The notes beneath the pieces are model-generated. The model saw only the letters and a list, made by a program, of their open reading frames with translations. It was not told where the DNA came from and made no database searches. A DNA stretch of 21,955 bases. Origin: a virus. The stretch lies in IMG/VR virus record IMGVR_UViG_3300031977_001186, positions 1-21,955 of that record. One strand, given 5' to 3'. Shown one piece after another: positions 1,497 to 21,366 of this stretch (position 1 is the stretch's first letter; the number at the start of each line of letters is the position of its first letter). The position numbers and the translations under genes were made by a program.

Positions 1497-1911
1497 TCTT
1501 TCTATGTAGCTCCTCTTTTTTTATTCTCTTTAAACTGCCGAAGCTGCTAACGGATAACAGCACCCATCCCCAATAACTGGCACCCTCGAAAAGCTTACCG
1601 CAGTAGAGGTACATTACAGCTGCCAATAAATAAAAGCTAAAGGTTACAAAGCTGGCGCGTACTCTACAGCTTAAACATTTACCGCTCACGCAGTAGAGCT
1701 GGTACAGTCCCGCAATAGGAGCGAGCACTTGCATTATAGGCGCATAGCCTAGCTCTAAATAGGTAGCCGTAGGATAGAGAATAACCAAAGCTACCGCTAG
1801 CGTAATCTCCGTGGGTTGGCTGTCGCTGTACTGCCATATAACGCGCAGAGAATCAAAGCGGGCTTTTAGCTCCGCCTTGATCTCTTGCGCTTTACTCTTT
1901 AGCCGCTCCAT
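1486..1911 (-). CDS. Four-segment membrane protein, possibly lysis-related
   Basis: Length 141 residues. The first 33 residues are a charged amphipathic helix (MERLKSKAQEIKAELKARFD). Four hydrophobic stretches follow: about 36-52, 58-74, 85-103 and 110-125. A Cys cluster YCVSGKCLSC (C-x5-C-x2-C) sits in the loop between the second and third. The C-terminal tail SLKRIKKEELHRKNGE is basic and probably cytoplasmic. It is upstream of a membrane-anchored coiled coil and a holin-like protein, so a holin or antiholin role is possible, but no family is recognised. It overlaps the next gene by 11 bases. Confidence 0.78.
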   Translation of the reverse strand: MERLKSKAQEIKAELKARFDSLRVIWQYSDSQPTEITLAVALVILYPTATYLELGYAPIMQVLAPIAGLYQLYCVSGKCLSCRVRASFVTFSFYLLAAVMYLYCGKLFEGASYWGWVLLSVSSFGSLKRIKKEELHRKNGE

Positions 1912-1914
1912 TGG

Positions 1915-2280
1915 TTAGAGCTGTGCTTCGCTGTTAGCTAGAATAAAAGCTCTAGCTTCCTCTGCTGTCATTACAGTATAGTTAGGCTCCGCCTGGCCAC
2001 TACCTAAAGCTACTAGGGCGCTTACCTCGCTATCTTTCCAGCTCGCCGTAAGCTCGTATACGATATACTCTACCTCGTCAGCTGTAACGCTTACCGGTGC
2101 GCCGTAATCAGCCTTATACTTCTCTCCGTACTGTGCCCAAGTAGGGTGTACTGTGTTAGAGCTTTCTACTTCGCCCTCCTCATTATAGGTATTCTCTACC
2201 CAATCGTAGCGAGTAATAGAAGCAGGAATAGCTTTAGCCTTGTCCGCAGCTGGTACGCTGATATATAAATTACCTCTCAT
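1915..2280 (-). CDS. Small tail-associated protein, unknown function (121 aa)
   Basis: Begins MRGNLYISVPAADKAKAIPA, then a charged, tyrosine-rich middle (TRYDWVENTYNEEGEVESSN) and a C-terminal segment with the helix MTAEEARAFILANSEAQL. The composition is acidic and soluble; no signal peptide or membrane segment is visible. No family is recognised. Its CTAG content is like the phage core, so the adhesion block ends between this gene and 2304. It lies three bases before the ATG of a membrane protein, and could be either the last tail gene or the first of the lysis block. Confidence 0.78.
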   Translation of the reverse strand: MRGNLYISVPAADKAKAIPASITRYDWVENTYNEEGEVESSNTVHPTWAQYGEKYKADYGAPVSVTADEVEYIVYELTASWKDSEVSALVALGSGQAEPNYTVMTAEEARAFILANSEAQL

Positions 2281-2303
2281 TTTCTTGATCTTGTTTAAAG
2301 TTG

Positions 2304-4151
2304 TTAGTCGTTAGTGTAGATGTACTTACCTGCCGTGTAATTACGCTCCACCTCCTCGGCGGTCAATGCGCGGTTATAGATGCGCGGTTGCGCGATTTGG
2401 TTTTGATATGAAGCAGCCGCTCCCGAACCACCATATTTACCTATTTCAATAGGTTTGTCGCTTGTTGCTAATGGTGAATTGTAGGCCGTACCGCTTCCGA
2501 TTTCTTGACCATCTATATATATTCTACGAGATACTAAATCATAAGTGCCTATAACGTGCTTCCATCCCGTTCCCGAAATTGAAGCGGCTGAACTACTTGT
2601 GTTTGTATAGAATAATAATTGACCAGCGTGAGCATAAATCATATAAGATGTAGCACCGCTAAACCACCGCCCTAAAACGCCATCATTGTTTGCCGTACCA
2701 TCCCAATACACCCACGCCTCTAACGTAATCGCATCGCTAACATCTACCGACGCGTTATCGTGCACCTCTGCCCAGCTATTCCCGTCAAGATTGAGCGCGC
2801 CTTGTTTGCGCACGTTTTCGAATAGATTCACGCCCGTAATGTCGCGGCCAGTTGTGAGGCCTTGAGGTGCTAAAATTTGCGTAGGGCTTCCGCTTATGGT
2901 CATATCATACGAACCGCTTTCGCTTTTGAATCCGCTGGCGTTTGTCCATTTCTCCTCGCCTACTACCTCGAAATAGTTTATTATACCTTTGAGGTAATAT
3001 GCTGATACCCTTGCACCTAAACACAAACCATTGTTTGCGGTGTCAAGTCTTGCGCTTACGCTCCCATCACTCGCTACGCCGTTAAGGGTTGCGCTTGTTA
3101 TGCTTTCCGCATCCCAATCAATAGTAAATTCTAATTCGTAAAAAGTGTTGTTTGTTAAACCGCTCCACGACGTATTATCAAAAGAAGTACCCGAACCATA
3201 CCCACGGATTCCTAAAACACCGCTATTGGTTCCCAAAAAGTTGATGGTTCCACCCATACCCAAAAGGGTTGATGTGTTCCAAAATTGGAAAATTTGTTGG
3301 TCGGCTTGCGTTACATCGTGGCTATTGAAATGTATTTTATAAGTTTTTGTTCCAGTTGTGTCAACATAGGTTGAACTTACCGCCACATCGTTAACGCCGT
3401 CAAAGTCGTATAACTTATTCCAATCAATAACCGCCGATTGTGCGACGGGTGCGCCAACGCCATTAACGTAAGTGGCCCCGCTTATAGTGCCGTGGTTGCC
3501 ATTTCCGCTACCATCGTACGCCGTCGTTCCCGCGCCTTCCATCATTGGTAGCCATAACTTTAAAGCGGTATCTTCTACGCCCGTTGGGACAATCTTTTCC
3601 GGGTTGTTGTATAGGTCGGATACTTGGGCGGGGGTTAAGGCGGTGTTGAAGATTTTAAAGCCGGCGATTTTACCATTATACCAAGGCGAACCCGTTTGAT
3701 GGTAAGAGCCTAATTTAAATTCAGTTATAGCACTAAAATCAATTGCCGTTATAGTCTTGTCCCCACTTAATTGATGCCCGTTATAGTAGGCGCGTTGCGT
3801 TGTGCCATCGCTTACAATCACATAAAAACCCATCGTGGTCATATCGGTAGTATCGTATACCGTCCAAGCGTTATTGTTGTAAACTTGGAAACCTTGGGTG
3901 TTGTGGTTTTTAATTACTAAACGATTCGGATTTAAGTCTAATAAATAGCCGTCGTTATCGAATTGAGCATAAAAGCAAATAGTAGCAACATTGCCCGCCA
4001 TCGTAAACCCGTCAAGGTCTACATAATCATTAACCCCATCAAAATCCAAGGCTTTCCCCGTGTATAGTTCTGCGCGGTTGTACCCCTTCGGGCTTTGGTC
4101 GTTACCGCGTGGGTTGAGCGGCTTGTTTGTCTTTGTTGTAGTTACTGCCAT
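2304..4151 (-). CDS. Tail fibre/adhesin with three LamG domains
   Basis: Length 615 residues. A short N-terminal head (MAVTTTKTNKPLNPRGNDQS and PKGYNRAELYTG) precedes three concanavalin-like units: 34-181 (ALDFDGVNDYVDLDGF ... AGFKIFNTALTPAQVSDLY), 247-400 (LYDFDGVNDVAVSSTYV ... INYFEVVGEEKW) and 452-603 (ALNLDGNSWAEVHDNASVDV ... PRIYNRALTAEEVERNY). The linker LWLPMMEGAGTTAYDGSG between the first two is the usual LamG-associated repeat. This is probably a multivalent receptor-binding protein. The domains are divergent in sequence, so duplication is old or the units were assembled from different sources. It shares the low-CTAG composition of the block. Confidence 0.86.
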   Translation of the reverse strand: MAVTTTKTNKPLNPRGNDQSPKGYNRAELYTGKALDFDGVNDYVDLDGFTMAGNVATICFYAQFDNDGYLLDLNPNRLVIKNHNTQGFQVYNNNAWTVYDTTDMTTMGFYVIVSDGTTQRAYYNGHQLSGDKTITAIDFSAITEFKLGSYHQTGSPWYNGKIAGFKIFNTALTPAQVSDLYNNPEKIVPTGVEDTALKLWLPMMEGAGTTAYDGSGNGNHGTISGATYVNGVGAPVAQSAVIDWNKLYDFDGVNDVAVSSTYVDTTGTKTYKIHFNSHDVTQADQQIFQFWNTSTLLGMGGTINFLGTNSGVLGIRGYGSGTSFDNTSWSGLTNNTFYELEFTIDWDAESITSATLNGVASDGSVSARLDTANNGLCLGARVSAYYLKGIINYFEVVGEEKWTNASGFKSESGSYDMTISGSPTQILAPQGLTTGRDITGVNLFENVRKQGALNLDGNSWAEVHDNASVDVSDAITLEAWVYWDGTANNDGVLGRWFSGATSYMIYAHAGQLLFYTNTSSSAASISGTGWKHVIGTYDLVSRRIYIDGQEIGSGTAYNSPLATSDKPIEIGKYGGSGAAASYQNQIAQPRIYNRALTAEEVERNYTAGKYIYTND

Positions 4152-4153
4152 CT

Positions 4154-4531
4154 TTATTCTTCTATTTCTTCGTCCGGTGTCGGGAAGAACTCCGGATGTA
4201 ATTCTTTACATTTTTGAGTCCATTCAGCTATGGCTGAACTACTGCCAAACGTATGCACGCCGATGGGCGCACACCAGATCATATTGCCGTCCCAGCTTGC
4301 TACTGGATCACCCGACCAAAGTACATCTACTGAATAGTTGTCCGACAATACCGCCGGCGTCAATTCATTCCCTTGTTCATCCATCGTGGCGGGTGTCGTT
4401 ACGATGTGGCCAAGGTGGACGATGGCGTGTGGGTGGGTTGGGTTTCCTTCTTCATCTACGCCCAACGCTTCGACGGCGGCGTGTGCCGCGTCGGCGGTTG
4501 GGAATTCATATTTTCTAAATGTGCGCTTCAT
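4154..4531 (-). CDS. Small unknown protein between fibre genes (125 aa)
   Basis: Product starts MKRTFRKYEFPTADAAHAAV and ends in an acidic tail PTPDEEIEE. Tryptophans cluster in the middle (VLWSGDPVASWDGNMIWCAP). The pattern suggests a small alpha/beta fold: an N-terminal strand and helix, then beta strands. It lies one base after the fibre gene stop with a similar composition, so it probably moves with the fibre genes and may help them fold or assemble. I do not recognise a named family. The gap to the next ATG is two bases. Confidence 0.8.
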   Translation of the reverse strand: MKRTFRKYEFPTADAAHAAVEALGVDEEGNPTHPHAIVHLGHIVTTPATMDEQGNELTPAVLSDNYSVDVLWSGDPVASWDGNMIWCAPIGVHTFGSSSAIAEWTQKCKELHPEFFPTPDEEIEE

Positions 4532-4532
4532 C

Positions 4533-6326
4533 TTATAAGGTTGTTAGGGTTACACATTCGGCGTCGCTTAATGCTTCGTTAAAAAGTAATACCTCTTTAA
4601 CATCGGGCGAAGATACCGGCGGGCCAAGGTGTATCTTTTGTGCATCCATTCCCGTATCAATGGTAAATGTTTTTACTAATTCGCCGTTGTAGAATCCTTT
4701 GACCAATCCGTTCGAACATTGGAACAAACACTTTGCAGTATCTCCAACGCTTACTGGAATATAGTGGTTTTGTGAATTGTCATCCACTCTCATTCCCACC
4801 ATATTATTTTGGTTGCAGTATATTCTTAATTGACTGGAACCGCCAGCGTCTTTGAACGTAATCTCTCCGCCACCATTTCCAATTTCGGGAACGATGAACT
4901 CCACGAACCAAGTGTACGTCGCGTTTGATGTTAGCAAAGAATCTACATCGGACACTCCCGAATCCGCCCCTCTCGTAGCGGCTGACCCATAGGTCGGGAC
5001 GTACGAAGAAACGTGGGAGCCGGCTTCAAATTGGCATCCAAATACATACGTTCCTTTTACGCCATCTCCTACAACATTTGCTTCATTATCGCTACTTGCT
5101 AATTGAACACGACAAGCCGCAGCTGAATATGTAGCCGTTGCCGTTGCTACTGCGGTACATCTATACCAGCCGTTTCCGTAATCTTCTATATATCCGGTTT
5201 TTCCGCTGTCCTCGTGCCCTACCGAACCCGAAGATATATTGAAATAAACCGAACCAGCAGCAAAAGCACTACCGCTACCTTGAAATCTTAAATGAATGAA
5301 ATCGTAATCTTTCTTTTTTGCAAAAACTGAAAACGCATAACTCGTACCGCTTGTTGTAGATAGCGAACTGACTAACATTTGTTGCTCACTTGTTGCGTTT
5401 GCACTTGTTAAAAGTGTAGCGTTATAAACTCCTTCGGGGCTTTTCGTTCCGCTGGTATTTGTTGTTGTTGTTATACTTCCGTTTTTACTCCATCCGGTGC
5501 CGTCAAAGTAATTTCCAAACGGCACCAAATTGGTGCGCTGACTTTCCAAAAGAAGTGCCCCCGCTCCGCTTGAGTAGTCAATGCGCGGGGTGTTCTCCAA
5601 TACTCCGGCGGTGGCCGTGGTGGCTCCCGTTTCGATGTAGTCGGTGGCTACGAGGCCGTATTCCAGTTGGGCGTTTTGGATGTAGATGTTACCCGCATCA
5701 GCTTCTCCAAAGTCTGGATATACTTGTATTCTTGTTAAAGAACCATTATAAGTCAAGTGGTATCTTCTCCATCCGCTTCCTAAATCATCGCTTGAACCAT
5801 AGTCTACTAATTTAGAACTTGGGTCTAAAAACCCATATACGCTACCATCATCTAAATTAAAAATAGCTCGTGTTCCATCATCATTTACACGCAATGTCAA
5901 TTTACCAAGTGTGCCTTCTTTAGCATAAATACTAAATGTCCAAAGACCCGAAGCAGTTACATCTTGATATAACTTTTGATATGTGAAAGCACCTTTGGTT
6001 ATTAACCAAGCATCATTGCTACCATCATATCCCGACTGACCGCTTGTGTGTGTTATGCTTGAGTCATTCAACCACGTCGTGTCAAACTGATTCGACTGGA
6101 GCAAAAGATTCTCCCTTCCCTTCTCAATCAATCCGTTGGCGTTCACTCGCGTTGCCGCAAGGTTTGAACCACGGGAAAACGTAAAGTCCGCACGGGTTTG
6201 ATCGTAACCGTTATGTGATCCGGTTTCGTCCGGTGCTTTGTTTCCGCTTGGGAGTACGTTGTACAATGTGCCGTCTTCGTAGGTGCTTGGCACCATTAAC
6301 AAAGATGCTTTATCAATTAGTGCCAT
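4533..6326 (-). CDS. Tail fibre/spike protein with duplicated carbohydrate-binding units
   Basis: Length 597 residues. Residues 1-70 (MALIDKASLLMVPSTYEDGT, then FTFSRGSNLAATRVNANGL) are a head region common to Bacteroidota phage fibres. Two related jelly-roll units follow: 71-235 (RENLLLQSNQFDTTW ... WTFSIYAKEG ... WRRYHLTY ... AQLEYGLVATDYIETG) and 263-455 (RTNLVPFGNYFDGTGWS ... YAFSVFAKKK ... GWYRCTAVA ... CQFEAGSHVSSYVPTYG). A LamG-like domain, 465-595, ends the protein (LFNEALSDAECVTL). This should be a glycan-binding receptor protein. It starts two bases after the preceding stop. It contains no CTAG, unlike the phage core. Confidence 0.85.
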   Translation of the reverse strand: MALIDKASLLMVPSTYEDGTLYNVLPSGNKAPDETGSHNGYDQTRADFTFSRGSNLAATRVNANGLIEKGRENLLLQSNQFDTTWLNDSSITHTSGQSGYDGSNDAWLITKGAFTYQKLYQDVTASGLWTFSIYAKEGTLGKLTLRVNDDGTRAIFNLDDGSVYGFLDPSSKLVDYGSSDDLGSGWRRYHLTYNGSLTRIQVYPDFGEADAGNIYIQNAQLEYGLVATDYIETGATTATAGVLENTPRIDYSSGAGALLLESQRTNLVPFGNYFDGTGWSKNGSITTTTNTSGTKSPEGVYNATLLTSANATSEQQMLVSSLSTTSGTSYAFSVFAKKKDYDFIHLRFQGSGSAFAAGSVYFNISSGSVGHEDSGKTGYIEDYGNGWYRCTAVATATATYSAAACRVQLASSDNEANVVGDGVKGTYVFGCQFEAGSHVSSYVPTYGSAATRGADSGVSDVDSLLTSNATYTWFVEFIVPEIGNGGGEITFKDAGGSSQLRIYCNQNNMVGMRVDDNSQNHYIPVSVGDTAKCLFQCSNGLVKGFYNGELVKTFTIDTGMDAQKIHLGPPVSSPDVKEVLLFNEALSDAECVTLTTL

Positions 6327-6328
6327 AA

Positions 6329-7084
6329 TTATGATAGTGCGTTAATGGCCGCAGTTACTGCCGCCTTGTTTTCTATTGTTGCGTCTTTATCTACTGCGAG
6401 GGCTTCCATCGTCGCCAATGATGCCGCCGGGCTGGCTACATCGTCCAAAGAATACCACGCTTGCAAACCGCTTTTTTCATTGTCCGTTAGCGACTGGTAC
6501 CCTTTCCACATTACCGCGTTAATCTCATCGCTGGAAAGCGCGCGGTTCCAAAATGCTACATTAGATAAATTGCCGTCCATTAAAGCGGCCGAGGTATAAG
6601 AAGCACGACCAATTTTCGCATTTGTTGTGGTGCTAATTGTTTGGCTTGTGGTTGCGCTACCTACTTGTGAGCCGTCAACATATAGTCGTTGCGTTGTGCC
6701 GTCATAGGTGCCAGTAACGAAATGCCATTCATTTAAAGCAAAAGAATTTTCTATTACATCGCTGGCATTTACCGAATAACTCAAGTTGGTTGAGCCGTTT
6801 AACTCAAATCGTATACCATCATCGTTTGCATCACGATTGTCAAAAAAGTTTGAATCGTTCGCGTTAAAATAAACCCACGCCGCGATGGTGTGGTTCGTAT
6901 AACTAAACGGAGTGTCTAATTGGATGTAGTCACTCGACCCGTCGAACTCTGCCGAACCTTGGGCGGGGTGTGTGATCCCCGATAATTTAAACTTACTAGC
7001 TGCCATAACCAGTCCGTCTCTTACGAAGCCCCCGGCTCCAAGTAGGCCTCTGCGCAGCAGGTAAAAAAAAGTAGCCTTTCTCAT
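6329..7084 (-). CDS. LamG-domain tail adhesion protein with conserved N-terminal anchor
   Basis: Length 251 residues. Residues 1-35 (MRKATFFYLLRRGLLGAGGF and VRDGLVMAASK) are short and hydrophobic-basic and could attach it to the tail tip. Residues 44-192 are a concanavalin-like LamG_3 domain: AEFDGSSDYIQLDTPFSYTN, HTIAAWVYF, NEWHFVTGTYDGTTQRLYVD and LSNVAFWNRALSSDEINA. The last 55 residues are alanine-rich and helical. The role is presumably binding surface glycan. Codon use switches within the gene: the only CTAG of the adhesion block is at 6996-6999, near codon 29; after that the sequence looks like the LamG genes downstream. Confidence 0.85.
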   Translation of the reverse strand: MRKATFFYLLRRGLLGAGGFVRDGLVMAASKFKLSGITHPAQGSAEFDGSSDYIQLDTPFSYTNHTIAAWVYFNANDSNFFDNRDANDDGIRFELNGSTNLSYSVNASDVIENSFALNEWHFVTGTYDGTTQRLYVDGSQVGSATTSQTISTTTNAKIGRASYTSAALMDGNLSNVAFWNRALSSDEINAVMWKGYQSLTDNEKSGLQAWYSLDDVASPAASLATMEALAVDKDATIENKAAVTAAINALS

Positions 7085-7120
7085 TCATTAGTAGTATTTA
7101 ATATAGTATAAACTTAGTAC

Positions 7121-9547
7121 TTATTTCTCTTTCTTTTGGATTATAAACCAGTTGCTTCCCTTACCTAAAAGCGTTATACCGTCGTAGCTCCTATCCATTA
7201 AATAAGTAGCTTCTCCGTCTATACGCTCGCCGCTCTGCGGCTGTAAGGTTATCGTCTTATTAGCTAGTACTCGGTCATCCGTTTTGAAGCGCAGTATTAC
7301 GCCGTTCTCACTTGCCGGTAGGTTAATCGTATAATTACCGTTAGCCCCGCTGTAGGTTATAAAATTAAAGTGGTCGCGTAAGCTTATCGTCTCGCTACCT
7401 CCTGGGTTACCCGTGATCTCGTTTATAGTTACATTAACCCGGTCGGTAGTGGTAAACTCTCCTACGCTTGTAGTGGCTAAAGTACTCGCTCCGGTTACGC
7501 CTAACGTGCCCCCTACGGTGGCGTTAGCCGTTACCTTGCTCGTAGTAGTAGTAACCTCTACAGCGTTTATAATTTCGTCGGTGCCCTGCTGGCTGCTTAT
7601 CCTAGCCACAAAGTCCGAACCTCCGCCACTACCTACGGGGGTATCCGTAGTAATGTTCGTTAGGTCTTTTTGAATCTTAAACCATTCCGCTGACCACTCA
7701 TCCATATTGGCGTTATAGCTTCCCTGCATAGGAAGCCAGTAGGCGCCCTCGAAGCTGTACCTAACCCCAAACGGGTAAGGGCCTACTACCGTACCGCTAT
7801 ACCTTTCTATAGGTTTCTTATGCAGCGCTAGTACCTCATTGGTTAAAAGCTTTAGTAAGCTCGCATAGCTCCCGCTATTGCCTCTACGCCATTGGGTAGA
7901 AGCTACCCAGGCTGTACCGTTGTACACATAAAAGCTACCCTGCAAGCCGGTAGAATCGCTTACCCTAAGCTCGCCTAGATCTAGTATAAGGTTGCTATTT
8001 ATATTAGTGTCCGTATTGGTAGCGCTGTATACTGTAACGGCGCTAGCGCTTCCGTTATCGTTTAAATATAAAACTCTAAAATTCTTACTCTCTACGATTT
8101 GGGTAAAGTAACCGGGCACCGTTTGCGAGGCTCCGGTATTGTCGTACACGTCCTCAAAGTTTACGTCTAGCGTGGCGTCTCCTGCTACGGGTAGCGGTGG
8201 GGTAACTATGCCTACCGGAGTAGATAAGTAAAGGCCTCCTGCCTCGTTTACGCCTATGTCCCCATCTATATAGTAATAGCTTGGGGTCGTAGTCCAGCTC
8301 GTAGCACCGTACAGCTGTGCGCCCGTTAGTCCGGGCTGCCAGTTTCTCTTTAAGTAGTAGAAGGTTCCCGGGTTAAGCACATCCTCTACCCTTACCTCTA
8401 CCTGCCAAACCGGGCGCCAAAACTCAAAAGCTATAGCTCCTGGGTTTCCGTTGTGGTTCAGCTGGTAAATAAGATCTCCTATAATTTGTAAGCGGCCGTT
8501 ATTATCGTCGTTTACAAAGCCTAGGTCTTGTCTAGGGGTAGCCGTAGTAAATGTCATACCACTAGCTAGCAGGTTGTTTAGACGCTCCTGGTTAAACCCT
8601 ACTTGTACTTTCTTAAGTGCAGGTAGGAAGTTAAAGCTGTTGCCCGCTAACCTTGCACCGCCCGAGGTAGTACCGTCTAGGGTAATATCGTCGCTAACGC
8701 TAGAGCTAAAGGCTTTAGTCCCGTCCTTATAGTAAGCGCTTACGGTTCTGCTAGTTTCGGCACGCTCTAGGTATTGCTCGAAATAGTATACGCCTTCGCG
8801 CTGGTAGAACCTTGCGCCGAAGGCTATACAAAGCTCTTTAAGAATATCTAAGTAGCTAGAGTATACTAGGGTGCCGTCCTCTTGTTTATCGGCGTAGACC
8901 AAGGCGTTAAAACGCGTTAGCGTAGTAACATCGGTAGAGGCGTTATAGGTTTGCTGCGTGTCCCAAGTGTTTACACTTGTAGCGTACAGTAGATCGTCAT
9001 CAGCGTATAAGCTATCTATACCTATAGCATCTACAGCACTCTCTATAAAGCCTTCTATGGTTATGTTATCCGTGCTGCTGTATTCTTTACTAGCTAGGTG
9101 CCCTATGCCGTCTACTGCCGTTATTTGGAATACATACGGCTTATGTGTATCCTCTACGCTTACGAGGTCTTGCATTACAATACCGCACCAGTATAGCCTT
9201 AGGCCATTGTCCGGCGGTAGCTCCGTCTCGTAGAAGTCGAATACTAGGCCGTCCTGGATAGTATCCGCCTCGCCGTAGATCCGTACCGTAAAGCGTTTCT
9301 CTTGGTAGTTCTTTAGGGCGCTTATAAAAGTATCGAAAGCGCTACTATTATTATAGGCGCTTATCGTACAGCTAGAGCCAATAATAGGGCTTACTATATC
9401 GTCGGTCTCCCCGTTGTAGTTTAAGGTAAAGCCGTCGGAGGCTACAGTAAAAGCTTCCGCTTCTCCGGTATAATCTTCGTCGTGTATCTCTACCTTAAAT
9501 AGCTTGTCGGTTGAGCTGTGGAATTCGCTATATAATCTTAACGCCAT
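7121..9547 (-). CDS. Tail-tip / baseplate hub protein with C-terminal fold domain
   Basis: Length 808 residues. The N-terminal 150 residues (LFKVEIHDEDYTGEAEAFTV, then FTLNYNGETDDIVSPIIGSS) resemble the combined distal-tail and hub proteins of Bacteroidota phages. The central region contains the typical DILKELCIAFGARFYQREGV and YYFEQYLE. The last 90 residues, INLPASENGVILRFKTDD and TITLQPQSGERIDGEATYLM to GSNWFIIQKK, form the beta-rich terminal domain found on many tail spikes and tips. It lies two bases after the tape measure stop, where distal tail and tail-associated proteins occur. I see no lysozyme or peptidase motif. CTAG-rich codon use places it with the phage core. Confidence 0.82.
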   Translation of the reverse strand: MALRLYSEFHSSTDKLFKVEIHDEDYTGEAEAFTVASDGFTLNYNGETDDIVSPIIGSSCTISAYNNSSAFDTFISALKNYQEKRFTVRIYGEADTIQDGLVFDFYETELPPDNGLRLYWCGIVMQDLVSVEDTHKPYVFQITAVDGIGHLASKEYSSTDNITIEGFIESAVDAIGIDSLYADDDLLYATSVNTWDTQQTYNASTDVTTLTRFNALVYADKQEDGTLVYSSYLDILKELCIAFGARFYQREGVYYFEQYLERAETSRTVSAYYKDGTKAFSSSVSDDITLDGTTSGGARLAGNSFNFLPALKKVQVGFNQERLNNLLASGMTFTTATPRQDLGFVNDDNNGRLQIIGDLIYQLNHNGNPGAIAFEFWRPVWQVEVRVEDVLNPGTFYYLKRNWQPGLTGAQLYGATSWTTTPSYYYIDGDIGVNEAGGLYLSTPVGIVTPPLPVAGDATLDVNFEDVYDNTGASQTVPGYFTQIVESKNFRVLYLNDNGSASAVTVYSATNTDTNINSNLILDLGELRVSDSTGLQGSFYVYNGTAWVASTQWRRGNSGSYASLLKLLTNEVLALHKKPIERYSGTVVGPYPFGVRYSFEGAYWLPMQGSYNANMDEWSAEWFKIQKDLTNITTDTPVGSGGGSDFVARISSQQGTDEIINAVEVTTTTSKVTANATVGGTLGVTGASTLATTSVGEFTTTDRVNVTINEITGNPGGSETISLRDHFNFITYSGANGNYTINLPASENGVILRFKTDDRVLANKTITLQPQSGERIDGEATYLMDRSYDGITLLGKGSNWFIIQKKEK

Positions 9548-9549
9548 AT

Positions 9550-11742
9550 TTAAAAGCCTCTATATCTGCTTCGTGTTCTATTTGCTTTCTCGGTGCTTAG
9601 GAGGATGTCCTGCCCGCTTAGGCGGCCGTACACCTCTACAGCCCCGCCAGTAGCTCCTGCGATCTGCGGCAGCTTGCTTAGAGGTATTACTGCCTCACTC
9701 TCGCGGCCTTCTCCAATCATTGCCAAAGTAGGGCCGGTAACTATACCACCCTCTGCTAGGAAAGGTATTTGTATACCACTAGAGGCAGCTACTGCCTTCA
9801 TACCTACGCCCAAGCTCTGCAAGCTTAAACCGCCGAGTCCTCCGGTAGCTATAACCAATAAAGCAGCCAATACAGCTACTAAGGCTATAGTAGCGATTAA
9901 CTGCGCGGCCATAGCCTTAAGCGCAGTTATAAAGCTTTCGCTAAAGCTCTCACCGTGTACAATAGCGCCCGCTATAGCATTGCCCAAGTTTTGGCTAAAC
10001 TGTAAAGCTAACCCATCACTTAGATCTATAGCTTGCTTGAGTCCTTGGCTGGTAGTCTTCGTAAATTGTAAAGCGCTTTGTCCCGTTTCTACAAACTTGG
10101 CGCCAAAGGCTTCTAATGAAGAAGCAGCTGTAAGGTTTACTTTAGCTAGTCTATCTATAGTACTTGTTACAGTTACTAAAGTTTCGGTTTGTTTCTTAAC
10201 TACCTTTTCGCCTTCCTCGGTCTCTTTGTTAGCATCTCTTTGAGCGTCTCCGATCTTAGCTATACCTATAGCCACTTTCATTAACTCCCCTCTAAGGCTC
10301 TTTAGCCTTTCCTCCATTGCCTTATAACGGGGGTTTTCTGCTAAATCGTAGAATACATTACTATAGCCGTCGGCGAAGTCCTCCATAACCTTTTGCTGCT
10401 CGGCTATGGTGTTCTTTAATACATCTCTTCTCTCTTCGAGCTGCTTTAGTCCTTCTTCGTGGTTTGGGTTTAGTACTGCGTTATCTACTGCCTCTTGGGT
10501 TTTGTCTACCTCTTTACGAAGCGCTAAGTACAAAGCAGTAACCCCAGCTAACGCTATACCTAGTGGCCCCATCGCTGCCGTGAGCGATCCGAAGGCTAGC
10601 GTAAGAGAACCTACCGCTGCAATAACTAAAGGCACCATAGCGAGTAAGCCAGCTAGCATAGTCTTATTATACAGCTGGGCGTCGCTCATACCTCTAATAG
10701 CTTCGGTTATCTTACCCATAGTACGGGTAAGGCCTTGCAGTATATTCTTAAATATCTCGTTATTAGTGATGGCTTCGCCAAGCTCTATAAGCGCTCCTTC
10801 CGTTGCACTCTGCAAAGTCTTGAAGGCTCCGGCCGTGTTATCCATCATTTCCTCTGCCATAGCAGCAGCGGCACCTTGCGCATTTTGGTAGCTCTCAGTA
10901 AGTCCGTCTACTGTGCTCATCTGCTCCGTGAGGATCATTAAGGCACCTTTAGCGCGTTCGCCTACTAAGTCGTTAGCTTCTGCTAGGTTGATGTTTTGGC
11001 TAGCCAGCTCTCTAAAGGTTTGGCGCATTGGCTTACCTTCCTGGTGGAGCTCGCTAAGAATCTTCTTTAAAGCCGTACCAGCTATAGAGCCCTTTATACC
11101 GTTGTTCGCTAAAGCTCCGAGCATTGCGCTAGTCTCTTCCATACTAACGCCCGTAGCCTTAGCAATAGGGGCGGCAGTCTTCATAGCCTCCGCGAAGCTC
11201 TCCATATCTAGGGAGCTCGTCGCGAAGCTCTTAGCCATTACATCGGTAACTCTTCCGGTCTCTGCTGCCTCTAAGCCAAAGGCTCTAAGGGTAGCACCTG
11301 CTACCTCAGCAGCACGCCCGAGCTCTGCCCCTCCCGCTTGCGCTAGGTATAGGGTGCTCTCGGTTACCTTGTCTATCTCGCTAGCGGTAAAACCAAGCTT
11401 CGCAAATTCCGTCTGCAATCCTGCTACCTCCGTAGCTGTAAAGGTTGTAGTAGCCCCTAGCTCTTTAGCTTGGCTCTCGAGTCTTTTAAATTGGTCTGCT
11501 GTGGCTCCGGATACCGCCTTTACCTTGCTCATCTCAGCCTCAAAGCCGGAGAAGGTCTTAACGCTTATAGCACCGAGGCCAATAAGTGGAGCGGAAATAC
11601 TGCGGCTTAGGTTTGTCCCTAAGCTCTTGGCTTGTGATCCGAAGCGGCGCATTTTACTACTGGCTACTTTTAAGCCTCTCGTAAGTCCGCTAAGGTTAGC
11701 ACCTATCGCAATGTTAGTACTTATGTTGCTCTTTTTTGCCAT
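9550..11742 (-). CDS. Tape measure protein
   Basis: Length 730 residues. Sets tail length; at the usual 0.15 nm per residue it predicts a tail of about 110 nm (inference). The PhageMin_Tail/TP901 core lies at about residues 85-290 (VSGATADQFKRLESQAKELG, FTATEVAGLQTEFAKLGF, GVSMEETSAMLGALANNGIK). Two hydrophobic zones, 362-408 and 611-635, could form membrane-active helices at ejection. Residues 410-500 and 510-590 are helical. Near the C-terminus the common end motif appears: FLAEGGIVTGPTLAMIGEG, then EAVIPLSKL (to residue 691). The start lies within the end of the chaperone extension. Confidence 0.95.
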   Translation of the reverse strand: MAKKSNISTNIAIGANLSGLTRGLKVASSKMRRFGSQAKSLGTNLSRSISAPLIGLGAISVKTFSGFEAEMSKVKAVSGATADQFKRLESQAKELGATTTFTATEVAGLQTEFAKLGFTASEIDKVTESTLYLAQAGGAELGRAAEVAGATLRAFGLEAAETGRVTDVMAKSFATSSLDMESFAEAMKTAAPIAKATGVSMEETSAMLGALANNGIKGSIAGTALKKILSELHQEGKPMRQTFRELASQNINLAEANDLVGERAKGALMILTEQMSTVDGLTESYQNAQGAAAAMAEEMMDNTAGAFKTLQSATEGALIELGEAITNNEIFKNILQGLTRTMGKITEAIRGMSDAQLYNKTMLAGLLAMVPLVIAAVGSLTLAFGSLTAAMGPLGIALAGVTALYLALRKEVDKTQEAVDNAVLNPNHEEGLKQLEERRDVLKNTIAEQQKVMEDFADGYSNVFYDLAENPRYKAMEERLKSLRGELMKVAIGIAKIGDAQRDANKETEEGEKVVKKQTETLVTVTSTIDRLAKVNLTAASSLEAFGAKFVETGQSALQFTKTTSQGLKQAIDLSDGLALQFSQNLGNAIAGAIVHGESFSESFITALKAMAAQLIATIALVAVLAALLVIATGGLGGLSLQSLGVGMKAVAASSGIQIPFLAEGGIVTGPTLAMIGEGRESEAVIPLSKLPQIAGATGGAVEVYGRLSGQDILLSTEKANRTRSRYRGF

Positions 11743-12080
11743 TTCGCTAGTATTGCTTTAGCTTCCGCTTTAGTTAGTTGTGGCCCTGCTTTTTGTGTGT
11801 TGTCCCAAGGGAATTTATAGAGCTCCTTAGGCTTTACTCTTTTGCCTTTCGGCAGCTGGAGGTTTACTAGTGTTACCGTTTGGCTTCGCATTACTTCCCA
11901 AAGCTCGCGGCTCTCTGCTTCCCTCTTTTCGCTAAAACCCGCTACAGCGTTATTAAGGCTGCGCGGGGTAAGATCTAAATACTCGCTGTAGTTGTAACCT
12001 AGTAAGCCTAGTGCTATCTGCTCGCAGCGGTCAAAAGTAAGAGGGGCTTCGGGGCTTTTCGAGCCCCTAGCCCCCTCTAC
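11721..12080 (-). CDS. Tail assembly chaperone, frameshifted extension (T-like)
   Basis: Reached only by -1 frameshifting from the upstream chaperone; it has no good start of its own after the slip site. The extension is 119 residues, giving a fusion of about 219 residues that reads ...FTPAKK then VEGARGSKSPEAPLTFDRCE. It contains LGLLGYNYSEYLDLTPRSL, which matches the 'G-(Y/F)-S-x-x-E-(F/Y)-x-x-L-T-P-x-x-L' signature of the C-terminal chaperone part in siphoviruses. As in lambda gpGT, this part should recruit the tail tube protein. The open frame extends upstream to 12155, but those codons overlap the 0 frame and are not expected to be used. It overlaps the tape measure start by 22 bases. 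Confidence 0.88.
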   Translation of the reverse strand, partial: VEGARGSKSPEAPLTFDRCEQIALGLLGYNYSEYLDLTPRSLNNAVAGFSEKREAESRELWEVMRSQTVTLVNLQLPKGKRVKPKELYKFPWDNTQKAGPQLTKAEAKAILAKWQKRAT

Positions 12081-12086
12081 TTTTTT
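12040..12086 (-). promoter_or_regulatory. Programmed -1 ribosomal frameshift site with nested stem-loop
   Basis: The canonical heptamer A AAA AAG lies at 12080-12086 (minus strand) in the correct phase of the short chaperone, directly before its TAG stop. Downstream is an inner hairpin GGGGCTCGAAAAGCCCC (12051-12067; six base pairs, five-base loop) starting 12 bases after the heptamer. A longer outer stem pairs 12069-12078 with 12040-12048 (nine pairs with one bulged G). The downstream open frame is in the -1 register, so slip site, structure and frames agree. Confidence 0.92.
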
Positions 12087-12379
12087 GCAGGTGTAAAGCT
12101 TTCGGTAAAGATGGCTAGTACTTCCTCTAGAGCGCCTGGGCTTTCGTCTAACCAATCGGCCACCTCTTCCGGGGTAGCGTTAAACTTTTCGCCCTCTACT
12201 CTAGCGCCTTGCTTTAACCCAGCTCTAATAAGCTCGATAGCTTGGCTTAGTGTTAAGCTATCGCCCATAGTATCTAACTGCGCTAGGGTGTAGCCGGTGG
12301 CGTCCGTGAATTGCATTAACGCAGCGAAGCCGAACTTTACAGCTCTCTCTTCGCCTCCTATGTTTACCTTCTTTACCAT
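12077..12379 (-). CDS. Tail assembly chaperone, short form (G-like)
   Basis: Length 100 residues. Resembles gene-transfer-agent/phage tail chaperones: KFGFAALMQFTDATGYTLAQ (15-34), LTLSQAIELIRAGLKQGARV, then ATPEEVADWLDESPGALEEV. It coats the tape measure protein during tail assembly. The last codons are GCA AAA AAG followed immediately by TAG; these codons form a -1 slip site, so a fraction of ribosomes continue into the next frame. Most product should be this short form. Confidence 0.86.
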   Translation of the reverse strand: MVKKVNIGGEERAVKFGFAALMQFTDATGYTLAQLDTMGDSLTLSQAIELIRAGLKQGARVEGEKFNATPEEVADWLDESPGALEEVLAIFTESFTPAKK

Positions 12380-12400
12380 TTGCTTTATGTGTGTTTAGTG

Positions 12401-12808
12401 TTATACTGTAGCGTAAGTAATCGCTCCCGTAAGCTCAAACGTAGCCGAGTAAGTTACGTTATCCTCCATACCTGCGTTTACTTCCAAAGAAGTAACATAA
12501 GCTGAAGCGCTCCAGTAGTGATCTCCGGATACTTCAGTAGAGAACTTAACCGTAAGCGTAGAGCGTCCGCTCCAAGCTGTCATAAGGTCATCTACTCCGT
12601 AAGCTGCGTCTTCTGCGTAAAGAGCAGATACCGAAATAGTACCCGATTTAGTAGCCTCTAGTAAGTCGCGAGTACCGCTAGAGCTTTTAGTAGTTGCGTC
12701 TCTCGTATCCATTGATAGAGAAATAGAGCCCTCCGTAGCGTGAGCGATTAGGGTAGAGCCAGCGTATACGCCTAGAAGCGTACCGTTCATAATGCCAGTA
12801 GTTGCCAT
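12401..12808 (-). CDS. Major tail (tube) protein
   Basis: Length 135 residues. It forms the stacked hexameric rings of the tail tube. Landmarks of the TP901-1/Phage_tail_2-type tube proteins: NGTLLGVYAGSTLIAHATEG (8-27), SISLSMDTRDATTKSSSGTR (28-47), GTISVSALYAED and YVTSLEVNAGMEDNVTYSAT, ending in a strand ELTGAITYA. The size is at the short end for the family. Position between tail terminator and the frameshifting chaperone supports the call. There is a 21-base gap before the chaperone ATG. Confidence 0.9.
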   Translation of the reverse strand: MATTGIMNGTLLGVYAGSTLIAHATEGSISLSMDTRDATTKSSSGTRDLLEATKSGTISVSALYAEDAAYGVDDLMTAWSGRSTLTVKFSTEVSGDHYWSASAYVTSLEVNAGMEDNVTYSATFELTGAITYATV

Positions 12809-12809
12809 T

Positions 12810-12986
12810 TTAGTCTAATTTATTTATTTGTTCTTCAATTACTTGCGGAGCTTCTGCCCCATATTCTACGGCCTTACCTGCTTCTATAAGCTCTTGGCCG
12901 TATTCGTTTACTACCTCTAAAGTTAGACCTTTAGCTAGCTTCTTACCGCTAGGAGAGGTTACTTTTTTTGTTAGTGTTATTTTCAT
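12810..12986 (-). CDS. Small protein related to the capsid-adjacent one (58 aa)
   Basis: Begins MKITLTKKVTSPSGKKLAKG and continues LTLEVVNEYGQELIEAGKAV, ending EEQINKLD. The layout 'MKI/V-x-L-x-K-x-V-x(4)-G-x(3)-A-K-G-x-x-L-E-V-x(5)-G/A-x-E-L-I-E-A-G' matches the gene at 14799-14996, so the two look like paralogues of one short family with an acidic rather than basic tail here. It overlaps the tail completion gene (ATGA) and ends one base before the major tail ATG. Function unknown; a small tail-associated or regulatory role fits the position. Confidence 0.75.
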   Translation of the reverse strand: MKITLTKKVTSPSGKKLAKGLTLEVVNEYGQELIEAGKAVEYGAEAPQVIEEQINKLD

Positions 12987-13372
12987 CGTTTAACTCTTAT
13001 TATATACTCCGAGCTCGTTACATAAGTCTCCGTAGCTGGGTCGTTATCAGCGTCCAGGTCTATAAACTGGATGCTATCTATAACTACTCCCGCCACCGTT
13101 CCGGTGTAACGATCTAGAGCCGTTCGTACTTTATTAGTTAAATCGCTAGCCTCTGCGTAGGTTTCGCAAGCTGCTACAATATCGTAGCGTACTTCGTCTA
13201 AGGTGCTTACGCCGCTCTTAGTATCGCTTGGGCTAGTGTCTTGCAGTACATATACCAAAAAGGGAAAGGCTGCGCCCTGCGCTGCTACCTGCGGGTAAAT
13301 GCGAGTACCTACGATAGCGTTTACGTCGCTGTCGCTGCTCAATATCGAGTATATAGCTTTTCCTTCCGTCAT
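12983..13372 (-). CDS. Tail completion / terminator protein (DUF3168 family)
   Basis: Length 129 residues. The DUF3168 pattern is visible: GKAIYSILSSDSDVNAIVGT (4-23), RIYPQVAAQGAAFPFLVYVL, then YDIVAACETYAEASDLTNKV and a C-terminal beta strand YVTSSEYIIRVKR. Proteins of this family (SPP1 gp17-like) form a hexamer capping the tail tube where it meets the head. The TGA stop overlaps the following ATG by four bases (ATGA). Confidence 0.85.
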   Translation of the reverse strand: MTEGKAIYSILSSDSDVNAIVGTRIYPQVAAQGAAFPFLVYVLQDTSPSDTKSGVSTLDEVRYDIVAACETYAEASDLTNKVRTALDRYTGTVAGVVIDSIQFIDLDADNDPATETYVTSSEYIIRVKR

Positions 13373-13896
13373 TATCTACTAAGCTGGTATAAGCTTTGCT
13401 TTAGTATTTTTTCTACTTCTTTTTGTAGGTTAGCCTTTGCTTCGGCTATACCCTTAGCAAAACCTTTCTCAGCGTAGTTTATATTACGCTTCTCGTCCGG
13501 TTGAGCTTTCGCCTTACCTCTTGGTAAGCCGTAATTAACTATAGCAGCGTAATACCCGTCGAAGGTCTTACCTGCCTTTTTACCAAATCTAGCACCTACA
13601 TAACCCAAAAGGGCGCCCTTCTTTTTAGAGGGGATAAAAGCTATAGACCTTCTTAGGTTACCGCTCTTATTAGTTACTGTGCTTTCTTTGCTTTTCTTTT
13701 GTACTGTTCTAGTGCTTACACTAGTTTTATTAGAGTCCTTAATAGAGCTCTTTACAGCTTTTACTAGAGGCTTCGCCGCCTTGCGAATACCCGCCTTAAA
13801 TTGGCGTGCCTTCTTGCGGTCGATGTCTTGTAAGGCTTTAAGCTTTCTTAGGGCTTTCTCTAAATCCTTTACCTCGAAGTAAATACCCTGCTGCAT
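13372..13896 (-). CDS. HK97-gp10-like neck/tail completion protein
   Basis: Length 174 residues, strongly basic. Family HK97_gp10 is indicated by SGNLRRSIAFIPSKKKGALL (residues about 85-104), then AGKTFDGYYAAIVNYGLPRG, where family members read GNLR-S and YA-x-x-V-E-Y-G. The N-terminal helix VKDLEKALRKLKAL is also usual. Members sit between head closure and tail terminator genes and take part in joining head and tail. The order here fits exactly. It shares TAATG with the next gene. Confidence 0.87.
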   Translation of the reverse strand: MQQGIYFEVKDLEKALRKLKALQDIDRKKARQFKAGIRKAAKPLVKAVKSSIKDSNKTSVSTRTVQKKSKESTVTNKSGNLRRSIAFIPSKKKGALLGYVGARFGKKAGKTFDGYYAAIVNYGLPRGKAKAQPDEKRNINYAEKGFAKGIAEAKANLQKEVEKILKQSLYQLSR

Positions 13897-14216
13897 TAGT
13901 CCCTAAGTGTAGTATCTAAAATAAGGTAGCGCTCTCTTCCCTCTAAGCTCACGCCTTCCACTTCATAGGTGCCGCTATTCCAGCTTATTTTAGTGGTAGC
14001 GTCTACATCGCTACGGTAGCGAATAGTAAAGCGTACCTTATTTACGCTGGTTAGCTTGTCGGTCTCCTCGCCTTCTTTGGGTACGCCTCTATACTCTACC
14101 TTAGCCCATACCTTGCCTAGGTCGCTATATGTGCGTACGGCCTGGCCGAAGCCGTCCGTACTTACACTAGCGGAGCGTAAAGTAATTCTTCTATCTAGCT
14201 TACCCGGATCAATCAA
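13896..14216 (-). CDS. Head closure / head-tail joining protein
   Basis: Length 106 residues, typical of the Phage_H_T_join (SPP1 gp16-like) family. The N-terminal signature is present as LDRRITLRSASVSTDGFGQA (7-26), then VWAKVEYRG and RFTIRYRSDVDA. The C-terminus YEVEGVSLEGRERYLILDTT completes the small beta barrel. It closes the portal-adaptor channel and joins the tail. It overlaps the connector by eight bases and the next gene by one (TAATG). Confidence 0.88.
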   Translation of the reverse strand: MIDPGKLDRRITLRSASVSTDGFGQAVRTYSDLGKVWAKVEYRGVPKEGEETDKLTSVNKVRFTIRYRSDVDATTKISWNSGTYEVEGVSLEGRERYLILDTTLRD

Positions 14217-14799
14217 AGCGGAAAACTCTATAAGGGTTAAGGAGGTGCTCGGAAGCTGTAGGTAAGCGGTGTACGCTGTCTACTCTCTTCTCGTACATCT
14301 CGCCAATAATCAACAGCAGGGCTACCTTTATATTAGCCGGTACGTCGCTCGCTTGGGTATAGCCACAAGTATAACGCGCTATAACAGCGTTTACCGTGTC
14401 CTTTGTGCCCTTCCAGCCGTGCTCGGGCATTATACGCGCAGGCTCGCTTACTAGGTCGCTGCGGTAATCGTCCGTACTTACGGTCTGCTCGTCTCCGTTG
14501 CCGTCTATGTACTTTAAGCTTGTGATGCTTTGTACTGGCCCTCTGCTGAGGTATACTATATTACGGTCTCCCCTAAACGGATCTACGCCCGTTTGGTATA
14601 CTGGGAAAAAGTCGTAAAACTCTTCTATAACCGTAGTTAAAAGAAACCTTCCTAAATAATGCTCGGCCACTTGCGTAGCCGCGTCAATAAGTACCCCTAG
14701 TAGGGTATCTTCGTCGCTAGAGTCTACTCTTAGGTAGTCCTTAACTTCTTGAACCGTTAGAGCTTTTAAGCTCGCTGGGGTAATTACTGTATAGCTCAT
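14209..14799 (-). CDS. Head-tail connector (gp6-like adaptor)
   Basis: Length 196 residues. Adaptor that docks under the portal. Landmarks of the Phage_connect_1/gp6-like family: LTVQEVKDYLRVDSSDEDTL (14-33), LIDAATQVAEHYLGRFLLT (about 37-55), YRSDLVSEPARIMP, and the C-terminal helices DVPANIKVALLLIIGEMYEK followed by LLNPYRVFRFD. It has the extended beta insertion (residues 60-130) often seen in the longer members. The gene starts on the stop of the preceding gene and overlaps the next by eight bases, consistent with ordered assembly of the neck. Confidence 0.9.
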   Translation of the reverse strand: MSYTVITPASLKALTVQEVKDYLRVDSSDEDTLLGVLIDAATQVAEHYLGRFLLTTVIEEFYDFFPVYQTGVDPFRGDRNIVYLSRGPVQSITSLKYIDGNGDEQTVSTDDYRSDLVSEPARIMPEHGWKGTKDTVNAVIARYTCGYTQASDVPANIKVALLLIIGEMYEKRVDSVHRLPTASEHLLNPYRVFRFD

Positions 14800-14996
14800 T
14801 ACTTAGCTCGGGTATTTCTTTTAGGTGCTTTCTTGCTTACTGCTCTTTCTGCTTTAGCTTCTTTCTTTACCTCTACGGCATCGCAGAAGCCAGCATTTAG
14901 AAACTCTTGAGCAGTAGCTGCGGGCAGCTCTACTACCTGGCCAGCCAAGTAGTAGAAGTCTGCGCCGCTTACATTTTGGTTAAATAAAACCTTCAT
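14799..14996 (-). CDS. Small capsid-adjacent protein with SH3-like-looking N-terminus
   Basis: Product of 65 residues: MKVLFNQNVSGADFYYLAGQ, then VVELPAATAQEFLNAGFCDAV, then a lysine/arginine-rich tail ending NTRAK. The pattern 'MKV-hydrophobic-NV-x-G-x(4)-Y-x-A-G-x-V-V-E-L-P-x(3)-A-x(3)-L-x-x-G' is very common directly after major capsid genes in siphoviruses, where the product is usually left hypothetical. The basic tail suggests a contact with DNA or an acidic capsid face. A related protein is encoded at 12810-12986. Its stop overlaps the connector start (TAATG). Confidence 0.8.
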   Translation of the reverse strand: MKVLFNQNVSGADFYYLAGQVVELPAATAQEFLNAGFCDAVEVKKEAKAERAVSKKAPKRNTRAK

Positions 14997-15013
14997 ATAA
15001 CTACTGTCTAAGC

Positions 15014-16219
15014 TTACGCTTGGATCAAGTGCTTAATAGCTGAAGCTTGGAGTACGTTACCATCGACTCTACGATAGGCGATGAAGCCGGTCGAGAGGGC
15101 ATCAGCAAAACGCTCGTTAAGACGTAGCAATTGTACGCCGCCTGCTTCGTGTACATAGTACTGCTTAAGATCACCGAAAATAATAGACTTGTTACCAGTA
15201 GCGATACCGTCCATATCTTCGTTAACGTGTACTGGCTTACCGAAAAGCAAGTCTACACCGCCTACTTCCATCGCTGGTACGAATACCGGGAAGTCGTTTG
15301 AGCTGCCGAACCCTAGTTTTCTCACAGCTGCGAGGGTAGCCGAATTCATCATAAACCCAGCACCTGCTGCGTTACGGTAAGAAGCATCTACTGCGTACAT
15401 CAAATCTAAGATCTCTGCAATAGTTACAGCAGAAGCTGAAGCAGCAGTCTTACCCAATGAAGAACCAGTTACAATACCTTGAGGCTGTGAGCTGTTTGTA
15501 CCAGTTGTAAGGTGGTCGTTAATACCACGGTTCAAACGGTTGGCCAATTGACCACCTACGAAGCCTGCCAAGTCGAAAGCATTGTCTGCCATCAATTGGT
15601 TTGAAACCTTAACGATTTTTGAGCTGTAAGTGTAAGGCTCGAACTTCACGTTAGTGAAGGTCATATCGCTAACGCTCTCTGCTGTACCCTCGCCCAAGAT
15701 CGCCGCTACTACTGAAGTATCGTCGTTAGCTGGCAAATTGAAAGCTTGACCGTTAGAAGTACGGATAACTGTAGCTACTCGCTCAATGTCCGACTTGAAC
15801 AATTCAGTAGCGCTTACAAAGTCGCTCCAGTTTTCCGGTACCAAGAAACCACCTAGACCGTCGTTAGTAGTAACCTGCGTAGAAGTACCGCGTAGCTCTT
15901 CCATTGCGCGAACCTCGTTAGCGTTAAGGCCGTTCATACCTTTGCGTAGGTAAGCGTTAAACGCGTCGCGAGCTTCTACCTTTGCAGGTGCTGCTTCGCG
16001 TACCTCTTCAGCTTTAGAAGCCATCTCTTTTTTCAATTCTTCCGCACGCTCAATACGAGCAGCAGCTGAGCGTAGCTCGTCTACTTCGTTAGAAATTGCG
16101 TCGAATTTTTCGTTTTCCTCGTTTGAAAGGTTGCGGCCTTCTGCTTTTGCAGCCGCTACCATTCCCTGCATCTGCTCTACTAGAGCACCGCGCTTTTCGC
16201 GCATTTGTTTAGCATTCAT
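15014..16219 (-). CDS. Major capsid protein, HK97 fold
   Basis: Length 401 residues, family Phage_capsid. Residues 1-85 are charged and coiled-coil-like (MNAKQMREKRGALVEQMQGM and onwards), the delta/scaffolding domain that the upstream protease should cut off, probably near residues 100-115. The mature part begins around TTNDGLGGFLVPENW and includes GINDHLTTGTNSSQPQGIV and the C-terminal FADALSTGFIAYRRVDGNVL. Codon choice differs from the neighbours: fewer CTA leucine codons, more CGT/CTT/TTG-type codons, and only three CTAG tetramers in 1.2 kb, as expected for the most highly expressed gene. No separate scaffold gene is present. Confidence 0.96.
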   Translation of the reverse strand: MNAKQMREKRGALVEQMQGMVAAAKAEGRNLSNEENEKFDAISNEVDELRSAAARIERAEELKKEMASKAEEVREAAPAKVEARDAFNAYLRKGMNGLNANEVRAMEELRGTSTQVTTNDGLGGFLVPENWSDFVSATELFKSDIERVATVIRTSNGQAFNLPANDDTSVVAAILGEGTAESVSDMTFTNVKFEPYTYSSKIVKVSNQLMADNAFDLAGFVGGQLANRLNRGINDHLTTGTNSSQPQGIVTGSSLGKTAASASAVTIAEILDLMYAVDASYRNAAGAGFMMNSATLAAVRKLGFGSSNDFPVFVPAMEVGGVDLLFGKPVHVNEDMDGIATGNKSIIFGDLKQYYVHEAGGVQLLRLNERFADALSTGFIAYRRVDGNVLQASAIKHLIQA

Positions 16220-18718: not shown

Positions 18719-18725
18719 AACTTAG

Positions 18726-18768
18726 AAGTATATACTTTACGCAAATATACGAAAAAAAGTATTTACTT
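18726..18768 (-). promoter_or_regulatory. Promoter box between two operator-like palindromes, upstream of portal
   Basis: An exact TAnnTTTG box (TATATTTG on the minus strand, 18742-18749) lies between two 12-base sites: AAGTATATACTT (18726-18737, a perfect palindrome) and AAGTATTTACTT (18757-18768, arms AAGTA/TACTT). They are identical at 11 of 12 positions and 31 bases apart start to start, close to three helical turns, so a dimeric regulator could bind both on the same DNA face. No TTTG/TTG -33 element is present at the usual distance, which could mean a weak or activator-dependent promoter. The portal TTG start lies eight bases past the inner palindrome. Confidence 0.5.
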
Positions 18769-18786
18769 CTTGTGTGTTTAGCTTTT

Positions 18787-18963
18787 TTATTGTATAGGCA
18801 GTCTAGTAATTTTAAAGCGTTCGTTTTCGTAGTAGTTACAGCGGGCGTTTATAACCTTGGTTAAGGTGCTATAGTTTAGCTCTAAGGCCTTACAAGCTCG
18901 CGTAAGTGTTCTATATCCTTCTACCTTTTTAGAGCTCTTATGCTCTACTAGAATTACTCTCAT
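18787..18963 (-). CDS. Small HTH-like DNA-binding protein candidate (58 aa)
   Basis: The product starts MRVILVEHKSSKKVEGYRTL and has a helix-turn-helix-like segment at residues 19-40 (TLTRACKALELNYSTLTKVI), followed by a basic strand RFKITRLP. The pattern 'L-T-x-A-C-x-A-L-(x)3-Y-S-T-L-x-K-x-I' resembles the small HTH units found in NUMOD1-like and phage regulatory proteins. It is the last gene of the cassette and lies directly before a promoter box flanked by two palindromes, so autoregulation or control of the portal transcript is a reasonable guess. It overlaps the zinc-ribbon gene by four bases (ATGA). Confidence 0.68.
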   Translation of the reverse strand: MRVILVEHKSSKKVEGYRTLTRACKALELNYSTLTKVINARCNYYENERFKITRLPIQ

Positions 18964-19383: not shown

Positions 19384-19392
19384 AGGTTGCTT

Positions 19393-19596: not shown

Positions 19597-19627
19597 AGTA
19601 CAGTAGTTGTTGTTGTTATTACTGGTG

Positions 19628-21362: not shown

Positions 21363-21366
21363 TCGG

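Follow-up and report, generated by a model that had tools for sequence, protein, structure and literature searches.

A CTAG-poor adhesin block in an uncultured tailed phage, probably drawn from a gene pool shared by several phage lineages

Introduction

The exchange of receptor-binding proteins and the avoidance of restriction sites are each well documented in phages. Modular exchange behind a conserved N-terminal anchor has been described as domain shuffling (PMC10684548), a host-recognition module is common to the Alteromonas phages A5, V22 and P24 (PMC10579305), and phages are known to avoid restriction sites (PMC6286503). A partial literature search found no paper that combines module exchange with site avoidance as its tracer. 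Moreover, the direction and tempo of receptor-binding gene exchange can rarely be read from uncultured phages.

Here we analyse a virus record of 21,955 bp (the window), which covers part of the genome of an uncultured tailed phage and contains a block of adhesin genes. The block illustrates, with sharp boundaries and an unusually clear marker, the swapping of host-recognition parts that is known from phages. As in the shuffled proteins described before (PMC10684548), a near-identical N-terminus carries swapped distal domains, and exchange extends across distant phages; here, however, the exchanged part bears the restriction-site and codon fingerprint of another lineage, it consists of several LamG cassettes with conserved DNA islands, and the receptor role is one that we infer. 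As in the Alteromonas phages (PMC10579305), syntenic fibre and small partner genes are common to distantly related phages, but the adhesins are of the LamG type and do not belong to the fibre family of those phages, the 125-aa partner is only a candidate chaperone, and the junctions are resolved inside the first gene. Finally, as in known cases of avoidance (PMC6286503), short palindromes (CATG and, in some lineages, CTAG) are nearly or wholly eliminated; in contrast to those cases, avoidance here varies within one genome, between its backbone and a single block, and the restriction enzyme is a presumed one.

Results

The adhesin block and its surroundings

The genes of the window lie on the minus strand and comprise regions for the terminase, portal, protease and capsid, tail genes, tape measure (9550-11742), tail tip, the adhesin block and a downstream region. 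Upstream of the block lies a probable tail-tip gene with core-like composition (7121-9547; codon LLR -97). The first gene of the block (6329-7084) codes for a LamG adhesin made up of an anchor, a LamG domain (residues 45-179) and a helical C-terminus, as judged with Pfam, AlphaFold and Foldseek. Its match to Laminin_G_3 (PF13385) scores 91.4 bits (7.9e-26; cut-off 27.6), the strands predicted by AlphaFold over residues 45-179 form a lectin-like beta-sandwich, and Foldseek matches of the model to pentraxin and LamG domains reach E values down to 1e-9. Neurotoxin-domain matches in the Foldseek list were discarded, as they merely reflect the shared jelly-roll fold. Next come a CTAG-free 597-aa tail protein or fibre (4533-6326; phrog_5939 tail protein, 9.5e-47; codon LLR +61.8 for the block) and a 125-aa protein (4154-4531), which usually follows, and in many phages adjoins, the homologue of 4533-6326; we found no convincing PDB match for the structure of the 125-aa protein. 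The last gene of the block (2304-4151) codes for a CTAG-free 615-aa protein with three Laminin_G_3 (PF13385) stretches (111.5 bits, 5.1e-32; cut-off 27.6), and beyond it lies a core-like gene for a 121-aa protein (1915-2280; codon LLR -22.6). In sequence and predicted fold the LamG domains of the window resemble the Laminin_G_3/concanavalin A-like (PF13385), pentraxin and LamG folds; compared with the Laminin_G_3 family, the domain is here joined to a short phage tail anchor. Their fold and position suggest that the LamG proteins may bind the host surface or a receptor.

Megablast of the window against phage records gave no match, and the matches of the terminase and fibre proteins, all below 60%, are spread too widely to point to one host. 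Prophage relatives were sought in two genome scans: the tail-tip alignment found none, and the two weak capsid hits, which fell in uncultured genomes, were not taken as hosts. A Shine-Dalgarno-like sequence is present at 1 of the 21 starts in the window, a scarcity that would presumably fit a Bacteroidota host, as a hint at most.

CTAG content and codon usage change in a step

A preliminary description of this DNA had reported a single CTAG in 2304-7084, near codon 29 of the LamG gene, about 20 in the neighbouring gene at 7121-9547, and the return of the site in 1915-2280. Direct counts agree: the sole CTAG of the block (6996-6999) spans codons 29-30, the neighbouring gene has 21 and the downstream gene 3, and there is none between 2017 and 6995. 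When the four block genes were shuffled synonymously with their own codons, 8.4 CTAG were expected and 0 of 1000 shuffles were as low as 1; recoding them with core codon usage raised the expectation to 24.9. Thus, the deficit is not due to chance and is larger than codon usage explains.

Codon usage in the block also departs from that in the core, as seen in the shares of CAA among Gln codons (0.90 in the block, 0.54 in the core), GAA among Glu (0.69 and 0.38), AGC among Ser (0.32 and 0.61) and CTA among Leu (0.11 and 0.30). The G+C profile barely changes across the block, shows no step and is uninformative. An unsupervised one-segment fit of codon usage, given no location, selected 6991-2360 with an lnL gain of 151.5; when the sequence and 40 shuffles of it were compared on one grid, the gains were 147.3 for the sequence and at most 49.2 for the shuffles. 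The intervals within 3 lnL of the best edges are 6964-7042 on the left (best 6991) and 2247-2390 on the right (best 2360). The composition therefore changes as a step and not as a gradient, at both of the places predicted beforehand, and the segment and the CTAG deficit together uphold the earlier proposal that the block is foreign in composition. The tetranucleotide AGCT occurs 242 times in 17.1 kb of core (7121-21834 listed) and 7 times in the 4.8 kb of the block, because of the preference for AGC and GCT codons.

A resident anchor in front of the LamG domain

The cumulative codon log-likelihood turns at codon 31 of the LamG gene, which is the fitted left edge. The 31 codons before the turn (MRKATFFYLLRRGLL...; 6992-7084) have core-like composition and carry the sole CTAG of the block. 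At fourfold sites in codons 1-20, 16 of 25 match the core relatives (the clade) and 0 of 22 match distant CTAG-poor phages, the relatives in these counts not being independent of one another. From about codon 21 onward the fourfold sites of the block give no clear lineage signal; the signal is back in 1915-2280, where fourfold identity is 0.53-0.67 in the clade and 0.31-0.35 in the CTAG-poor phages L125 and L035. Both the turn in codon likelihood and the fourfold sites bear out the idea that a core-type N-terminal anchor is followed by an exchanged LamG part.

Clade N-termini read MRKA.F.YLLRRGLL and those of CTAG-poor phages mostly MKQS.FYYLLRRG, or are unrelated sequences; all of them converge on GSAEFxGxSDY. 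In the window this motif (GSAEFDGSSDY, 6926-6958) marks the start of the LamG domain, and it is the joining point of the cassettes of relatives. Residues 35-41 of the window protein (GITHPAQ) are already like the CTAG-poor type. The case for the junction in the window is built on about 30 codons and seven residues. Clade members mostly have the break at codons 42-55, about ten codons later. In the predicted structure a low-confidence N-terminal stretch precedes the first LamG strand, which is placed at residue 45, and the junctions thus lie just before or at the domain start.

Backbone and block have different relatives

Core proteins of the window are mostly 71-95% identical to those of the nearest spanning relatives, L005, L011 and L124 (the exceptions being the tape measure of L011 and a few small genes), whereas block proteins are 37-60% identical; full-length adhesins of relatives do not, therefore, change at the rate of the core. 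In L120-L123, tail-tip proteins are 31-41% and LamG genes 62-64% identical to those of the window. Across the 13 loci of the clade, the cores contain 904 CTAG in 124 kb and the blocks 4 in 29.9 kb, against 58 expected. LamG homologues are also found in lineages that are nearly CTAG-free throughout, such as L125 (1 in 20.8 kb), L035 (0 in 15.4 kb) and L126 (0 in 11.3 kb). The codon usage of the block is closest to that of non-homologous core genes of the CTAG-free L035, L126, L125 and L120 (0.016-0.022, versus 0.045 to its own core), and GATC depletion is common to the block and the CTAG-poor phages. Some block homologues of CTAG-normal phages (L017, L016 and L026) do contain CTAG.

In the tree of 7121-9547 homologues the clade forms one branch with full support. 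In the LamG domain tree the clade label is scattered (10 changes; shuffled mean 9.6), a tree constrained to keep the clade intact is rejected (AU p 7e-47), and four starred sister pairs each join a CTAG-normal and a CTAG-poor phage. The trees are quick searches without bootstraps, and the conflict is independent of any one branch. The nearest sequence to the window in the LamG tree is that of the CTAG-free L120, at 59% identity; with no recent twin for the LamG domain of the window, the transfer is not dated as recent. Because the trees conflict, CTAG and codon usage match those of distant phages, and cassettes occur behind unrelated N-termini (see below), the first 31 or so codons are best read as a resident anchor and the remainder as drawn from an exchanged pool. 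As expected of modular exchange, the anchor follows the backbone and the distal part does not (fourfold sites, trees and pair profiles).

The block is a mosaic

DNA comparison with relatives revealed conserved islands, 69-91% identical to the distant L125, at the end of the LamG domain of the first gene (about 6441-6576), in the N-terminal segment ahead of LamG 1 of the 615-aa protein (4026-4154), in the interval between LamG 1 and LamG 2 (3414-3677), in that between LamG 2 and LamG 3 (2706-2867; 91% over 2755-2867) and at the end of 2304-4151. The LamG cores between the islands mostly show no DNA-level alignment to L125. In the pair L008/L130, about 420 bases from the motif onward are 98-100% identical, with 23-42% identity ahead of it, and the cassette pattern is similar in L006/L145 and L020/L077. 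Near-identical LamG cassettes are thus found behind unrelated N-termini, with identity from codon 43, and the start motif itself is 87-100% identical in nucleotides in cross-lineage pairs with an unrelated flank on one side. In these three pairs individual cassettes have swapped on their own.

Whole genes are exchanged as well. In L005 the genes corresponding to 4533-6326 and 4154-4531 are absent. L208 and L223 agree at 99.2% along 12.4 kb, up to a break inside the 7121-9547 homologue, near the start of the tail-tip gene, and then have different tail tips and adhesins. It is this pair, and not the window itself, that exemplifies phages nearly identical in all but the recognition module. The C-terminus of the LamG gene (6329-6460) is of two types in relatives, ending in ...AAITAAINALS or in ...DSSGNGNDGTAN, and the type seems to correlate with what kind of gene comes next. 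The islands and alternating cassettes, the gene content of L005, the L208/L223 pair and the two C-termini together indicate that the block is a mosaic of repeated exchanges.

The earlier proposal of a single replacement of the whole block by two crossovers is therefore unlikely. In its favour, the composition shows a single segment whose two edges are sharp and lie where they were predicted, and the gene order 6329-4533-4154-2304-1915 is found also in CTAG-poor phages, L035 and L125 among them. However, islands and variable cassettes alternate within the block, lone cassettes swap, the gene content of the block varies among relatives, and we found no CTAG-poor phage that carries the whole 4.7-kb block at uniform high identity.

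CATG is absent from core and block alike

CATG does not occur in the window (about 33 expected) or in the 13 clade loci (0 versus 213 expected), in core and block alike; the clade zero was obtained by direct counts, single CATG counts elsewhere being an effect of joined fragments. It is also absent from the lineages L125, L035, L126, L120 and L062 and present in other homologous phages, and its absence probably represents restriction avoidance shared with those lineages. Depletion beyond composition and coding was found for CTAG in the block, and CATG is depleted in the window; the absence of both sites may reflect restriction in hosts. DNA methyltransferases were considered as the cause of CTAG tolerance and rejected, since C5 and N4/N6 enzymes occur in CTAG-normal and CTAG-poor phages alike, without a pattern.

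Discussion

We read the locus, with its composition step, its boundaries, its discordant ancestry and its cassettes shared across anchors, as a host-recognition module of about 4.7 kb, taken from an adhesin pool shared by several tailed-phage lineages and set on a resident anchor (probability about 0.88). The stretch from 2304 to about 6991 would have been drawn from this pool, and the module would consist of adhesins, both LamG-type and fibre, with a small partner protein, hung on the anchor of about 31 codons. The anchor would stay with the phage's own tail while LamG cassettes and whole genes are exchanged. Repeated exchange most likely proceeds by homologous recombination at the short islands that encode LamG domain edges, a pathway that we infer; no recombinase was found, RecT being absent from 20 records. 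The pool may circulate largely in CTAG-avoiding phages, most simply through hosts with CTAG-specific restriction, and net flow may run mainly from CTAG-poor to CTAG-normal phages. The block would then retain the CTAG absence, GATC depletion and codon usage of a CTAG-avoiding lineage inside a CTAG-normal genome.

It is very unlikely that there was no exchange and that the codon usage and low CTAG content of the adhesins stem from the amino-acid content of the proteins or from how strongly they are expressed. Within the core, the major capsid gene does form a second outlier segment in codon usage (15014-16219; gain 113), perhaps because of high expression, and the adhesins of all lineages are alike in codon usage. 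Thus, codon usage by itself is no proof of transfer, and we dropped that argument. The CTAG deficit, however, persists under synonymous shuffling of the same proteins, and CTAG-rich genes do exist in the adhesin position: the clade relative L021 has unrelated genes there (10402-11618), with 16 CTAG in 1.2 kb, which look native and may be an alternative module. Moreover, the conflict between backbone and LamG trees and the presence of cassettes of 90-100% nucleotide identity across unrelated backbones already refute an explanation without exchange.

An assembly artefact, in which the conserved motif led to the joining of contigs from different phages, seems highly improbable. The junction does lie close to a short stretch of conserved sequence, a place where assembly can go wrong, but an independent contig, L004, covers both edges with 99.97% identity over 12.5 kb, about a dozen clade contigs from different metagenomes combine the same CTAG-rich core with a clade-type anchor and a CTAG-free LamG part, and the composition change in the window sits upstream of the motif. 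Reshuffling of adhesins within the genome by dedicated variation machinery (a diversity-generating retroelement or an invertible segment) is scarcely conceivable, for although variable cassettes between conserved edges superficially resemble such systems, the region 1800-9600 contains no repeat of at least 18 bp, neither a reverse transcriptase (RVT_1) nor a serine recombinase was found in the window or in 13 relatives (partial records), and the cassettes are common to distant phages rather than copies within one genome.

With exchange from a shared pool as the preferred reading, a further-reaching proposal can be made, although it is doubtful: the adhesins may form a pool of their own, kept mainly in phages of CTAG-cutting hosts, from which CTAG-tolerant phages borrow so often that CTAG is never regained, in which case CTAG would be both a tracer of direction and a clock of residence time. 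Backbone and module differ in a countable mark, the split is replicated in many related contigs, and the junctions can be placed within tens of bases in the window and at the motif in relatives. Thus, residence time, donor lineage and crossover site become measurable from metagenomes alone, and restriction-site content could serve as a barcode of the host pool through which a phage gene last passed.

Mosaicism is also seen outside the block. Among otherwise close relatives the tape-measure gene falls into two classes of alleles, with identities of 70-84% or 23-28%, and the small genes next to it follow its class, which marks a further exchange point. Directly after the block, the genes 1486-1911 and 1206-1496 are 82-87% identical to those of L016 and L017 and have no match in L005, L011 and L124, which do share 1915-2280; a further mosaic boundary therefore falls in this region (1206-1911). 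Lastly, L025 is a hybrid whose tail part consists of window-clade genes (7121 homologue 87%, 12401 homologue 91%), together with the head region (capsid 48%, portal 51%) and anchor of another lineage.
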